A stretch of 64,000 bases of DNA from Beduinella massiliensis (GTDB lineage Bacteria; Bacillota; Clostridia; Christensenellales; Aristaeellaceae), in contig NZ_LT963430.1 of assembly GCF_900199405.1 (NCBI RefSeq), positions 2,573,605 to 2,637,604 of the forward strand. Reading direction: 5' to 3'. Numbering within the stretch: the stretch's first letter is position 1; the number at the start of each line of letters is the position of its first letter. The translations under genes were made by a program, and so were the position numbers. Below, piece by piece: positions 16,789 to 30,737 of this stretch. A model generated the notes under the pieces. It searched no databases. It was not told the origin of the DNA and was given only the letters and a program-made list of their open reading frames with translations.

Positions 16789-16882
16789 CTGATTTTCTTC
16801 AGAACCTCCATTCAAGAAAAAAGAACGCAAAAAACGCCGCAAAGGCATGAAGTGACCCCCAAAAGTTAGACAAATAGTTTAA

Positions 16883-17725
16883 TTAAGCAGCCGCAAGGGC
16901 TTGCTGTCTGTGCATCGCAGGTGGCAAGCCCATTGTCTTTGCCTTGCGACGACGGTTGTTGTAGTAATCAAGATAGTCAGTCAGTTCATTCTTAAAATGT
17001 TCCATGGAATGAAACGTCTGCAAATACAGCAGCTCACTCTTGAGCAGGCCAAAGAAGCTTTCAATCACCGCGTTGTCCAAACAGTTGCCTTTGCGACTCA
17101 TGCTCTGATAAATTCCTTTTTCTTTGAGCATTCTTTGGTACTGCTTGTGCTGATACTGCCAGCCTTGGTCGGAATGTAGGATAAGATTTGTTCCATCCGG
17201 AATTTTTGCAAAGGCATTGTTCAGCATAGTTGTCACCATAGACAGCGCTGGCCTGTCCGAAATGGTGTAGCTGACGATATCCCGGCTGCACAGGTCGAGG
17301 ATTGGCGACAGGTAGAGTTTTTGCCCCAAGAGACTGAACTCTGTGACATCGGTCACCCACTTTTGATTCGGCTTCTCTGCTTCAAATTTGCGCTCCAGCA
17401 GATTTGGAGCGATTTTGCCAATTTCTCCTTTGTAGGAATGATATTTTTTCATCCGGACGCGGCAAACGAGTTTCAGGTCACGCATCAGTCGCTGTACCGT
17501 CTTGTGGTTGAGGACAAAACCTTTGTCACGCAATTCGTCTGTGATACGGCGGTAGCCGTAGCGACCTCTGTGCTCATGATAGATGGCCGATATCAACTCT
17601 TTTTCCAATTCGTATTTGTCTGGCGCGGCCTGTCGCTTTATGTGGTAATAGTAAGTGGCACGCGGGAGTTGAGCGATGGAAAGGAGCAGATCCAGCCGAA
17701 AATCTTGCCTCAGTTTTTGAATCAC
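16883..17725 (-). CDS. IS3-family transposase OrfB (DDE integrase domain)
   Basis: 280 residues with an HTH_21-type N-terminal region and an rve integrase core. The catalytic DDE residues are in WVTDVTEF, LHSDQGWQY and DNAVIESFFG, so the enzyme looks intact. It begins with GTG in the -1 frame relative to orfA and overlaps its stop (GTGA). A run of six A precedes the overlap (CACAAAAAACAC), so an OrfAB fusion by -1 slippage is possible. Confidence 0.93.
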   Translation of the reverse strand: MIQKLRQDFRLDLLLSIAQLPRATYYYHIKRQAAPDKYELEKELISAIYHEHRGRYGYRRITDELRDKGFVLNHKTVQRLMRDLKLVCRVRMKKYHSYKGEIGKIAPNLLERKFEAEKPNQKWVTDVTEFSLLGQKLYLSPILDLCSRDIVSYTISDRPALSMVTTMLNNAFAKIPDGTNLILHSDQGWQYQHKQYQRMLKEKGIYQSMSRKGNCLDNAVIESFFGLLKSELLYLQTFHSMEHFKNELTDYLDYYNNRRRKAKTMGLPPAMHRQQALAAA

Positions 17726-18072
17726 CAGTGTTTTTTGTGCTGGCGTCGCTCGTCTTCCAAAACCAAGGCTTGCAAGTTTTTTAGGTACGCATTCTCCGCT
17801 CGTAGCCGCTGCACTTCTGCAAGCAAGTCTTCTTCTGTTTTTTCAGGTAGCCTTGGTGGGCGTCCCTTACTCCCGCGTCCACGACGCTCCACGCAAAAGC
17901 CTTCCGGACCTTCTGTTAGGTAAATACGCTCCCACGCCGCGACCCGCTTGTCGTCTCCAACCTCGAATTGTCGCGCTGCTTCCTTGTAACTCAACCTTTC
18001 CTGTTGCATTGTTTCTACCACTATCGTCTTAAACTCTGGCGTGTATCGCTTGTTTGGTTTCCCTTTGGGCAT
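17722..18072 (-). CDS. IS3-family transposase OrfA (HTH)
   Basis: 116 residues from the ATG at 18072 (MPKGKPNKRYTPEFK). A helix-turn-helix of the IS3/IS911 OrfA type binds the element ends (YKEAARQFEVGDDKRVAAWE), followed by a leucine-zipper-like coiled coil (LLAEVQRLRAENAYLKNL). It pairs with OrfB to form the active transposase. Confidence 0.92.
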   Translation of the reverse strand: MPKGKPNKRYTPEFKTIVVETMQQERLSYKEAARQFEVGDDKRVAAWERIYLTEGPEGFCVERRGRGSKGRPPRLPEKTEEDLLAEVQRLRAENAYLKNLQALVLEDERRQHKKHW

Positions 18073-18169
18073 AAAAAGCACCCCCAACGTTTTCAGTATA
18101 CCATACTGTCTAACATTGGGGGTGCAGTTCAGCATTGCCTTTGCAGCGTTCTTCTCTTGCGTCCGATGC

Positions 18170-27597: not shown

Positions 27598-28602
27598 ATG
27601 GCCGCCGTCTTTGCCGGCTTTTTGCTCGCGCTCATGCTGCGCTTTCCGCTTGAGGCTCTCGATGCCGCTGCCAGCGGCCTGCGCGTGTTTTCGCAGGGGG
27701 TTTTGCCCGCGCTTTTTCCGTACATGGTGCTCTGCCAGCTTCTTACGCCCGCCCTCTGCCGCATGCGCCGCATTCCCCGCGCGCTGCCTGTCGCCGCGCT
27801 CGCCTTTATGGGCGGTTCACCCGGCGGCGCTCGGCTCATTTCGCTTCTGCGCGAGCAGGGGGCGTTGAACTCGCGGCAGACGCGCCTGCTCGCGGCGCTC
27901 ACCGGCACATGCAGCCCCATGTTCCTGCTCGGAACAGTAAGCGTATGGGCTTCCTCACGCGCGCTGGGGGTTGCCGTGCTCGCCGCACATTGGCTCGGCT
28001 CGGCGCTGTGCGCGCTGTGCATCTGGCCATTTTTGAAGCCGGAAAGCGTCCCAAAATCGTCAGCCCCTGCCGCCGTGGAACCTGTTTCGTTCGCCAAGGC
28101 GGTGCAGGGCAGCGCCCTGGCGATGCTCACCGTCTGCGGGTGCATCGTGCTCATGAGCGTCGCCGCCTGCCTGTGCGGCTGTGCCTTTCCGGTCTTTACC
28201 CGCACGGCACAGGCCTTTTTGCACGCGGCGCTCGAAATGGCTGGCGGCTCCCGGGCCATCATTTCCCTTGGTTTTCCCCCGCGCGAAGCCGCCGTCTGCG
28301 TGTGCGCGGCTATCTCGTTCGGCGGCGTCAGCATTCTGCTGCAAAACCTTTCCTTTTTGCGGCCGGTCGGTGTGCCCGCGGTCTTTCTGTGCGGCTGCCG
28401 GGCGCTGCACGCGTTGTTTTCCGCCGCGCTGGTCTACGCCCTCTATCCCCTCTGCGCCCGCGTTATTCCGGCCGCCTCGCTAGCGCCCACCGCTCCCTCC
28501 CCGCTTCTGATGGCCGCGCTCTTTACATCGCTCGCGCTGGCCGCTGCGCTCGTCATGCTGTTCAGGCGTTCCGGAAAGGCAAAGGGCCTTCCGGCAAAAT
28601 AG
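27598..28602 (+). CDS. ylbJ: YlbJ/SpoVV-like sporulation membrane protein
   Basis: 334 residues with about eight membrane helices and two nucleoside-recognition (gate) type segments: GVLPALFPYMVLCQLL and FMGGSPGGARLISLL. YlbJ (SpoVV) of Bacillus moves dipicolinic acid into the forespore, so its presence suggests a spore former. ATG 27598 follows GGGGGG and lies 46 bp after tmcAL, the same neighbourhood as in Bacillus (ylbJ...ylbM). Identification rests on helix pattern and context. Confidence 0.8.
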   Translation: MAAVFAGFLLALMLRFPLEALDAAASGLRVFSQGVLPALFPYMVLCQLLTPALCRMRRIPRALPVAALAFMGGSPGGARLISLLREQGALNSRQTRLLAALTGTCSPMFLLGTVSVWASSRALGVAVLAAHWLGSALCALCIWPFLKPESVPKSSAPAAVEPVSFAKAVQGSALAMLTVCGCIVLMSVAACLCGCAFPVFTRTAQAFLHAALEMAGGSRAIISLGFPPREAAVCVCAAISFGGVSILLQNLSFLRPVGVPAVFLCGCRALHALFSAALVYALYPLCARVIPAASLAPTAPSPLLMAALFTSLALAAALVMLFRRSGKAKGLPAK

Positions 28603-28639
28603 ACATTCAAGCTGGGCGCGGCATCCAAAATGCAAGGCG

Positions 28640-28667
28640 GTGTTGCAGATTAAAAAATCTGCGGCAC
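28640..28667 (+). terminator. Terminator stem of ylbJ, cut from its T run by an IS
   Basis: Arms 28640-28651 and 28656-28667 pair over 12 positions (two G-U) around AAAA. The T run that should follow is found at 29965-29970, on the far side of the insertion sequence that starts at 28668. Confidence 0.85.
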
Positions 28668-28726
28668 TGGACTGTATCCGGTTGAACGGACAGGAAAATA
28701 AAAGGATATTGTAGAATTACGCAACC

Positions 28727-29578
28727 TTACGCGGCGTTGCTCCTGATTTCATAGGGAGTAAGGCCGTATTTCAGGTTAATGCGTTCGAAGTTGTAGAAGT
28801 GGACATATTGTGCAACCAACTCCTCTACCTCTGCGCGAGTAGAATAATGGGCACGATAAAGGCATTCCGATTTAAGCGTTCCGAAGAAATTCTCCATAGC
28901 AGCATTGTCGTATGGACAACCGGGACTGGACATAGAGGGTTGAAAGTGATATTCTTTGCTTAGGTCGAAGTATGCTTCGGAGGTGTATTGAGACCCTTGG
29001 TCACTGTGGAGCGCGAGTCCATCAGTGACCTTCTCTGTTATCATAGCGTCTCGGATCGTCTGAGTAACCAGCGATGCGGCCATGTCGCCACCAATGCGAT
29101 AGGCCAACACCATTCGACCACAAAGGTCAATCACCGCACACATATACAGCATTCCCTGTGGTGTGGGGATATAGGTGATATCTGTTGACCAGAAACGATT
29201 GGGCCGTTGCTGTTCAAAGGCACGCTGCAATAGGTTTGGGTATTTGTACACGTTTTGCTGATGTTGAGTATATCTTCTTTGCCGCCGAATCTGTGCAAGC
29301 AGATTGGTCTTGCGCATGACGCGCAGAAGTGCTTTAAGATTTACATTTTTTCTTTTCTTCCGCTGGATCCAGAGACGAACACGGCGGATGCCGTAGGTCT
29401 GGTTGCACTGCTGTTGACATTCCACAATCAGATCGACCAACCACTGATCTTTCGGCGTTTTTTCTTGCTTTTTACGCCAAGCATAATACCCACTTCGGGA
29501 AACTTCAAATACTTCACACATTGTGACGATAGGATAAATGTTGCGAAAACGTTCTATAACTCGATATTTCAATTTCAC
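28727..29578 (-). CDS. IS3-family transposase OrfB
   Basis: 283 residues: HTH_21-type N terminus (YGIRRVRLWI) and an rve core with catalytic residues in FWSTDITYIP, LHSDQGSQYTS and DNAAMENFFGTLK. Intact. The start is GTG 29578, overlapping the orfA stop (GTGA); a GGAAGGAGG inside the end of orfA would also serve TTG 29572, so OrfB is probably made independently rather than by frameshifting. Confidence 0.93.
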   Translation of the reverse strand: MKLKYRVIERFRNIYPIVTMCEVFEVSRSGYYAWRKKQEKTPKDQWLVDLIVECQQQCNQTYGIRRVRLWIQRKKRKNVNLKALLRVMRKTNLLAQIRRQRRYTQHQQNVYKYPNLLQRAFEQQRPNRFWSTDITYIPTPQGMLYMCAVIDLCGRMVLAYRIGGDMAASLVTQTIRDAMITEKVTDGLALHSDQGSQYTSEAYFDLSKEYHFQPSMSSPGCPYDNAAMENFFGTLKSECLYRAHYSTRAEVEELVAQYVHFYNFERINLKYGLTPYEIRSNAA

Positions 29579-29877
29579 CTCCTTCCAACTTCTAACAGAA
29601 AATTTCGCAGCAGTTCCACCTGCATACGCAGTTTTACCAATTCATTATTCTGCTGGATTTCCTCGTTCTCCGGCATTTTACGCGGACGGCCTTTAGGGCG
29701 AGGTACATCGCCCTTTGCGATTAATCGTTCTCTACGGTTTTCTCGATTGACTAGTTGCTCAACCTGTTTCTTCGTTAGCCCAAGGCTGGCTCCGATTTCA
29801 CGATTCGTTTCGCCCGTGATTTTCCGCTCGCGTATTGTTTCAATAAGGCCTTGTACCTTCGTGTATTTTTGCCTCAT
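29575..29877 (-). CDS. IS3-family OrfA-like DNA-binding protein
   Basis: 100 residues. A helix-turn-helix (NREIGASLGLTKKQVEQLV) is followed by a basic PRPKGRPRK segment and a coiled coil (NNELVKLRMQVELLRNFL). It corresponds to OrfA of the element at 28668-29964. AGGAGG lies before ATG 29877. Confidence 0.9.
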   Translation of the reverse strand: MRQKYTKVQGLIETIRERKITGETNREIGASLGLTKKQVEQLVNRENRRERLIAKGDVPRPKGRPRKMPENEEIQQNNELVKLRMQVELLRNFLLEVGRR

Positions 29878-30014
29878 ACAATAAACCTCCTGTCGTAGTT
29901 TGCTTCTTACATTCTACAACAGGAGGTCTCTTATTTCATTGTCCGTTTATCGGGATACAGTCCATTTTTTCATTTTCTTGTTACGGTCTTTTTGTGCAAC
30001 GGCCCCTTCTATGA

Positions 30015-30737
30015 TTACAGCACCTTGCGCAGGAAGTCCTGCGTGCGCGGGTTCTGCGGGTTGCCGAAAATCTGCTGGGGCGTGCCTTCCTCCATGACGA
30101 TGCCCTCGTCCATGAAGAGCACGCGGTCACCCACTTCGCGGGCAAAGCCCATTTCGTGCGTCACGACGACCATCGTCATGCCGTCCTTTGCAAGCTGCTT
30201 CATGACGTCGAGCACCTCCCCGACCATCTCCGGATCCAGCGCGCTCGTCGGCTCGTCAAAGAGCATGACGTCCGGGTTCATCGCCAGCGCGCGCACGATG
30301 GCGATGCGCTGCTTCTGCCCGCCGGAAAGCTGATTCGGGTAGGTATTCGCCTTGTCCTTAAGCCCAACGCGCGCGAGGAGCTGTTCTGCCTTTTTCGCGG
30401 CCTCGTCCTTGTTCATGAGGCCGGTGTTGACGGGCGCTAAGGTGAGGTTTTGCAGCACGGTCAGGTGGGGAAAGAGGTTGAACTGCTGAAAGACCATGCC
30501 CATGCGCCTGCGAATCCGGTTGATATCGCACTTGGGATCGGTGATGTCGGTGCCCTCAAAGAGAATCTGTCCGCTCGTGGGCGTCTCCAGCAGGTTCAGA
30601 CAGCGCAGAAAGGTGCTTTTCCCGCTGCCGCTGGGCCCGATCACGACGACCTTCTCTCCGGGGGCGATGTGCTGATGGATGCCCTTTAATACTTCCAGGT
30701 CGCCGAATTTCTTATGCAAATCCTTAACGGTTATCAC
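30015..30737 (-). CDS. Polar amino-acid ABC transporter ATP-binding protein
   Basis: 240 residues. Walker [10 protein letters not shown], signature LSGGQKQR, Walker [15 protein letters not shown] and the His switch VVTHEM are all intact. The GlnQ/ArtP-type length and the neighbours (permease, binding protein) place it in the PAAT family. It overlaps the permease gene by 14 nt. Confidence 0.95.

Follow-up and report, generated by a model that had tools for sequence, protein, structure and literature searches.

An apparent split terminator between ylbJ and glnQ is probably a nested, deleted IS1182-family transposon, and IS3-family elements appear to target terminator-like hairpin loops

When an insertion sequence is bordered by a hairpin on one side and by a run of T residues on the other, it is natural to ask whether the element has entered an intrinsic terminator and, if so, whether it did so by some targeting rule. 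Such an arrangement occurs between a ylbJ-like and a glnQ-like gene in the window, as we call the whole stretch of 64,000 nucleotides from the genome of Beduinella massiliensis (G000) that was analysed. A first-pass annotation of this DNA had held that a second, unrelated IS3-family element cut the ylbJ terminator exactly between its stem and its T run, and that together with the other IS3-family element of the window this showed both transposons hitting intrinsic terminators. The geometry on which this proposal rests is borne out: the 12-pair hairpin, the IS3-family element (here IS#2) and the six T residues directly beyond it (29965-29970) follow each other without a gap (table 1). The arms of the hairpin (28640-28651 and 28656-28667) form 12 pairs, including two G-U pairs, around the loop AAAA. 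A consensus terminator scan of positions 28500-30100 did not call this hairpin and returned one other site, where 2.0 were expected.

Table 1. Features of the window discussed in the text.
Feature	Coordinates	Strand	Remark
Left arm of the IS#1 target hairpin	16833..16847		16845-16847 is the target duplication GCA
IS#1, the window's other IS3-family element	16848..18131	-	1284 bp
Second copy of the duplication and right hairpin arm	18132..18150		duplication copy at 18132-18134
ylbJ-like gene	27598..28602	+	convergent with the glnQ-like gene
IS1182-family left end	28634..28667		28636 is the first G of the terminal repeat; hairpin incomplete in its 3' arm
Hairpin, 12 pairs, AAAA loop	28640..28667	+	remnant of a longer stem (16 pairs or more)
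IS#2, IS3-family insertion sequence	28668..29964	-	1297 bp; target duplication absent
IS#2 OrfB	28727..29578	-	HTH_21, rve integrase core
IS#2 OrfA	29575..29877	-	named from its position; no family match
IS1182-family right end	29965..30006		42 nt, from the T run to CAACGGCCCC
Amino-acid ABC transporter ATPase (GlnQ-like) gene	30015..30737	-	convergent with the ylbJ-like gene

The product of the ylbJ-like gene matches TIGR02871 (spore_ylbJ) with an E-value of 2.6e-29 and 102 bits, below the cut-off of 304.65, and the gene has matches of 68-69% identity in both genomes of the same genus (G025 and G065). The top model for the GlnQ-like protein is PRK09493 (GlnQ), with 332 bits and the cut-off of 379 not reached. 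IS#2 is bounded by inverted repeats of 37 nt (28668-28704 and 29928-29964; 81% complementary, TGGACTG...CAGTCCA) that start with TG, and it encodes OrfA and OrfB as two overlapping open reading frames, with a transposase scoring 294 bits against NF033516 (IS3; cut-off 160). The assignment to the IS3 family thus stands; calling the element unrelated to IS#1 was too strong, since the OrfB proteins of the two, both members of that family, are 33% identical.

Both halves of the apparent terminator recur elsewhere in G000, and they do so together with IS#2. The T run is part of a tail, and a 31-nt stretch beside it has seven sites in the genome (at most three mismatches), every one of which adjoins a copy of IS#2. 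The left arm of the hairpin is found at ten sites with 0-1 mismatch (an eleventh row, at 3772054, represents the other arm of a hairpin already counted), eight of them lying next to IS#2 or in one element with it. At four loci (L003/L033, L005/L034, L006/L032 and L011/L038, the last broken by a stretch of N) the hairpin is followed by a transposase segment of 1.1-1.5 kb, then by IS#2 and then by the T-run tail. The transposase matches NF033551 (IS1182) with 272 bits at a cut-off of 270, aligned from model position 74, as well as DDE_Tnp_1_6. Three of the four IS1182 copies in G000 are cut short by IS#2 ahead of their right end, and the fourth runs into a stretch of N. The transposase gene, present beside these four sister copies of IS#2, is missing at the window copy.

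The sister copies also show how much of the hairpin has been lost. Their stem has at least 16 pairs, formed by GGCGGTGTTGCAGATT with AATCTGCGGCACCGCC, and the two that were folded reach -29.4 and -33.3 kcal/mol. The window stub folds at only -15.6 kcal/mol because the last CGCC of its 3' arm is missing at the boundary with IS#2, and the junction therefore lies inside the stem and not at its foot. The notion that the hairpin ends where the insertion sequence begins is contradicted by the sister stems, which run on into CGCC.

The nature of the element that contributes these sequences is clarified by relatives from the same bacterial family (L044, L045 and L046), which carry similar elements with 68-69% DNA identity in the main match, each with a hairpin plus a T run near the right end. 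The element in L044 starts with GGGGCTGTTGCAG, which folds into a hairpin, and ends with TGCAACAGCCCC; the outer arm of this hairpin is at the same time the terminal repeat of the far end, GGGGCTGTTGCA being present at both. In L046 the hairpin and the right end are both seen, in L045 the right end only. The hairpins of L044 and L046 are homologous to the left end in G000, with arms that have changed yet still pair. Since hairpin and tail bound the element in L044 and L046, they represent the two extremities of a single IS1182-family transposon. The terminal repeats in G000, GGCGGTGTTGCA and GGGGCCGTTGCA, are by eye less alike than those of L044. Placing the end of the IS1182 element just inside the hairpin was considered and rejected, since L044 has the outer arm of the hairpin at both ends. 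No target duplication of the IS1182 element was seen by eye. A scan of contigs for a close relative gave 53% identity over part of the protein as its best match (among the 80 loci listed of 104), and a plasmid search returned two records with 4% of the query covered.

These results bear directly on the idea that IS#2 broke up a terminator native to ylbJ, leaving its stem on one side and its T run on the other. Stem and T run do flank IS#2, and another IS#2 copy of the genome, L004, likewise lies between a short stem and TTTT. However, both halves recur as ends of the IS1182-family element: what lies beside the T run is the right end of that element, whose 31-nt core adjoins IS#2 wherever it was found, so the T run cannot be assigned to the stem. 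The sister stem extends past the junction, and IS#2 is without the target duplication. An empty-site comparison, which the first-pass annotation had itself named as able to refute its reading, goes against it. In G025 and G065 the gap between ylbJ and glnQ measures about 50-100 bases, is free of mobile DNA and contains other terminator-like sequences (e.g. AAAAAGGGCGACCGCTTCAGGCGGCCGCCCTCTCTTTTT in G025), and neither the hairpin nor the tail of the window occurs there. We therefore regard a split ylbJ terminator as highly improbable, and take its supposed halves for the two termini of an IS1182-family element that is nested and has lost internal sequence. The terminator-like hairpins at the 3' end of ylbJ in the two genus-mates (L395 and L396) are unlike each other and absent from the window strain.

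A different objection is that the hairpin might be no part of the IS1182 element at all, being instead a dispersed terminator repeat of the host that served as a target for both the IS1182 element and IS#2. Two solitary left-end hairpins in apparent intergenic DNA with no transposase alongside (1478222, in L031, G000:C3:1478199-1478239; and 1194629, in L042, G000:C3:1194629-1194670) are what such a repeat would look like, and two IS#2 copies, L009 (G000:C3:1043837-1045133) and L010 (G000:C3:410390-411686), sit at the foot of the hairpin, two bases off, in opposite orientations. The outer hairpin arm of L044, by contrast, doubles as the terminal repeat of the other end, and eight of the ten hairpin copies in G000 accompany IS#2, long IS1182 sequence being present at four of these, so that we consider a host repeat unlikely. 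With the hairpin taken as the left end of the transposon, the solitary copies are perhaps relics that now act as putative terminators. In L009 a second, different hairpin starts exactly at the other edge of IS#2.

The very probable explanation of the locus as a whole, in our opinion, combines a nested and deleted IS1182 copy with the targeting of terminator-like hairpin loops by both IS3 lineages. The element between ylbJ and glnQ would be an IS1182-family transposon with IS#2 inside it. IS#2 may have entered at or near the hairpin of the right end. This hairpin with its T run would offer a landing pad to any element in search of terminator loops, which would account for the nesting of IS#2, in either orientation, next to one and the same T run. 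The entry step is a reconstruction: the searches showed no intact copy of this IS1182 element free of IS#2, and no IS#2 junction in G000 is clean. The compound element then would have spread over the chromosome, probably with the IS1182 transposase acting in trans. An identical left junction of IS#2, inside the IS1182 gene, is shared by L005 and L006, as expected if the compound element was copied. At the copy in the window, DNA next to IS#2 may later have been deleted, with loss of the transposase gene and the last bases of the left hairpin, and what remains, i.e. the left-end stub, IS#2 and the 42-nt right end, would mimic a terminator split in two.

The copies of IS#2 in G000 do not show the targeting rule. 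There are ten full copies and one partial copy, plus four diverged fragments (L012-L015), and nine of the 11 copies adjoin or sit within remains of IS1182 elements, L002 and L004 being the exceptions. None of the ten full copies has a 3-bp target duplication, and none reaches the 95th percentile of the control for a loop hairpin across the junction. The loop-stem score used here, expressed as control percentiles, replaced a count of base pairs spanning the junction, which was dropped as weak (23.6% of random 60-mers reach 14 pairs). No IS#2 row out of 20 reaches the 99th percentile, eight of the ten own copies being counted in both readings among these rows, and two IS#2 relatives with both ends available, L074 and L075, have neither a duplication nor a hairpin.

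In the case of IS#1, all four intact G000 copies (a fifth, rearranged copy, L020/L021, was left out) carry a 3-bp duplication (GCA, AAA, GGC and TCT) and have hairpin arms on both sides with A or T runs outside them; their loop-stem scores all exceed the 95th percentile of the control, three being at or above the 99th. Together with copies from relatives there are 14 two-ended IS#1 copies, eight of which exceed the 95th and four of which reach the 99th percentile; the remaining six show no loop hairpin above the 95th percentile, L255 and L258 despite a 3-bp duplication. The claim that insertion falls between stem and T run is not sustained by these copies: clean insertions lie in the loop, with a 3-bp duplication.

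Because numerous contigs of the relatives break off within the insertion sequence, single flanks were collected, L012-L015 and ends that could not be placed (e.g. L388, whose end departed from the motif searched) being left out. With identical flanks (30-35 nt at the edge of the element) removed and one batch of left flanks not included, the first T run lies 10-25 nt from the edge in 72 of 127 pooled IS#1 flanks, which are mostly from relatives and include those of G000, and in 25 of 48 IS#2-type flanks from relatives; the corresponding figure for random positions is 1310 of 20000 (6.6%), these controls having been taken from all long loci without restriction to gene ends, so that the contrast may be overstated. 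A T run 60 nt further out is found in only 16/127 (IS#1) and 3/48 (IS#2-type) flanks. Counted by side, 42 of 64 right IS#1 flanks contain a T run in their first 45 nt, and A runs are present in 48 of 63 left ones. The G000 flanks of IS#2 have a T run at 45 nt or less in 12 of 18 cases, at a median distance of 1 nt and mostly as part of the IS1182 tail; in the count by side some of these flanks apparently stand on both sides, the inverted repeats matching each other.

The flanks were also paired with each other. IS#1 flanks with a genome label numbered 46 on the right (of 64) and 42 on the left (of 63). The strongest duplex partner of a right flank comes from the same genome in 29 of 46 cases, compared with a mean of 5.3 and a maximum of 15 in 5000 shuffles of the labels. 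The 3-bp ends are identical in 12 of these 29 same-genome pairs and in none of the 17 cross-genome best pairs (2.3% of all cross-genome IS#1 pairs have identical ends). A single left flank often comes out as the top match for several right flanks; given this, and given look-alike hairpins in the genome G236, some same-genome pairs join different insertions. The IS#2-type set comprises 16 left rows, among which L386 and L248 represent one flank; 15 of the rows, or 14 distinct flanks, have a candidate from the same genome. Five of the 15 chose a same-genome partner, 0.95 being expected, and all five pairs have identical 3-bp ends (GAA, AGT, AGA, CTG and TTC); the other ten chose another genome, and the cross-genome best pairs L376/L095 and L074/L093 share 3 bp too.

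Could all this reflect a mere preference for AT-rich intergenic DNA at gene ends? The controls, coming from all long loci, leave room for such an effect. The T runs, however, concentrate 10-25 nt from the edge and are few 60 nt beyond this band, and left and right flanks that pair and have the same 3-bp ends occur in excess of expectation, a result that a simple preference for gene ends does not predict; we hold such a preference alone to be quite unlikely. That relatives of both insertion sequences often land in loops of terminator-like hairpins is thus supported, as far as flanking sequences can tell. The earlier statement that both elements hit terminators holds for IS#1 in G000 as well as in relatives, and for IS#2 in the relatives only, because no full IS#2 copy in G000 represents a clean insertion. 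The collection of copies that was to check it likewise gave a divided result, with hairpin loops at four of four IS#1 copies and none of ten IS#2 copies in G000, and with enrichment near T runs for relatives of both. In G236, IS#1-type insertions on the contigs C44, C53, C14, C55, C95 and C30 are located at terminator hairpins that look alike (ACGCCG..GAGAAAGC type), which suggests a dispersed terminator repeat in that genome.

The hairpin arms vary from site to site by eye, and with so many sequences the recognition of one particular arm sequence is unlikely. Common to the sites are a dyad, a loop with the 3-bp cut and, beyond the arms on either side, runs of T or A. The transposase most likely reads a DNA hairpin, be it a cruciform or a dyad, rather than a sequence; targeting linked to the polymerase would be an alternative. 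On balance we favour the view that two IS3 lineages of this bacterial family, as distant as their OrfB proteins are, share a rule by which they enter the loops of varied intrinsic terminators with a 3-bp duplication, that their transposases or a shared host factor read the hairpin or cruciform, and that transposons ending in terminators serve as landing pads and give rise to nested elements.

Several known systems invite comparison. Terminator stems are also targets of group IIC introns; these are retroelements with a ribozyme and insert after the stem, whereas here DDE transposases are involved and insertion takes place in the loop with a duplication. The element IS231A reportedly inserts in the ends of Tn4430, a choice ascribed to DNA bending; that case resembles ours in that one insertion sequence chooses the terminal repeats of another transposon, and differs in the families concerned. 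The host transposon agrees with the IS1182 family in encoding an IS1182 transposase and in having a relative, L044, with matching end repeats; it differs in the truncation of the G000 copies and in a left end made up of a terminator-like hairpin. Closest to the case at hand are IS1397, ISKpn1 and ISPsy8, all of the IS3 family, which enter REP palindromes, ISPsy8 inserting where a probable hairpin has its axis of symmetry and being flanked by a direct repeat of 3 bp (PMC1525189). IS#1, from the same family, likewise sits on palindrome axes, between short duplications. In those elements, however, the target is one conserved REP repeat, whereas the sites described here have varying terminator-like arms, often with a T or A run 10-25 nt out, and no conserved REP-like target sequence was apparent by eye among the IS#1- and IS#2-type sites, the arms being different. 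The target is thus a class of structures and not a single repeat. Our survey of the literature, covering titles and the openings of abstracts and scarcely reaching subscription journals, yielded no description of IS3 elements choosing terminator loops.

For a mobile element, terminator loops would be safe harbours, plentiful in bacterial genomes and independent of any one repeat family, and an element finding its target by shape could spread widely without breaking genes. Insertion in terminators would alter read-through between adjacent genes, and an element inserting into terminator loops could become a tool for insertion after genes. The window itself illustrates that a nested and eroded transposon can mimic a cut terminator, a trap whenever target sites are read from single copies.

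Further observations made by eye concern the surroundings of the IS1182-family elements. At L008 (G000:C3:1978560-1979857), IS#2 and the 42-nt IS1182 right end abut the start of a putative serine-recombinase gene. In the relative G122 (L044, reverse strand 1-330), the IS1182-family element lies directly after an array of tRNA-like genes.
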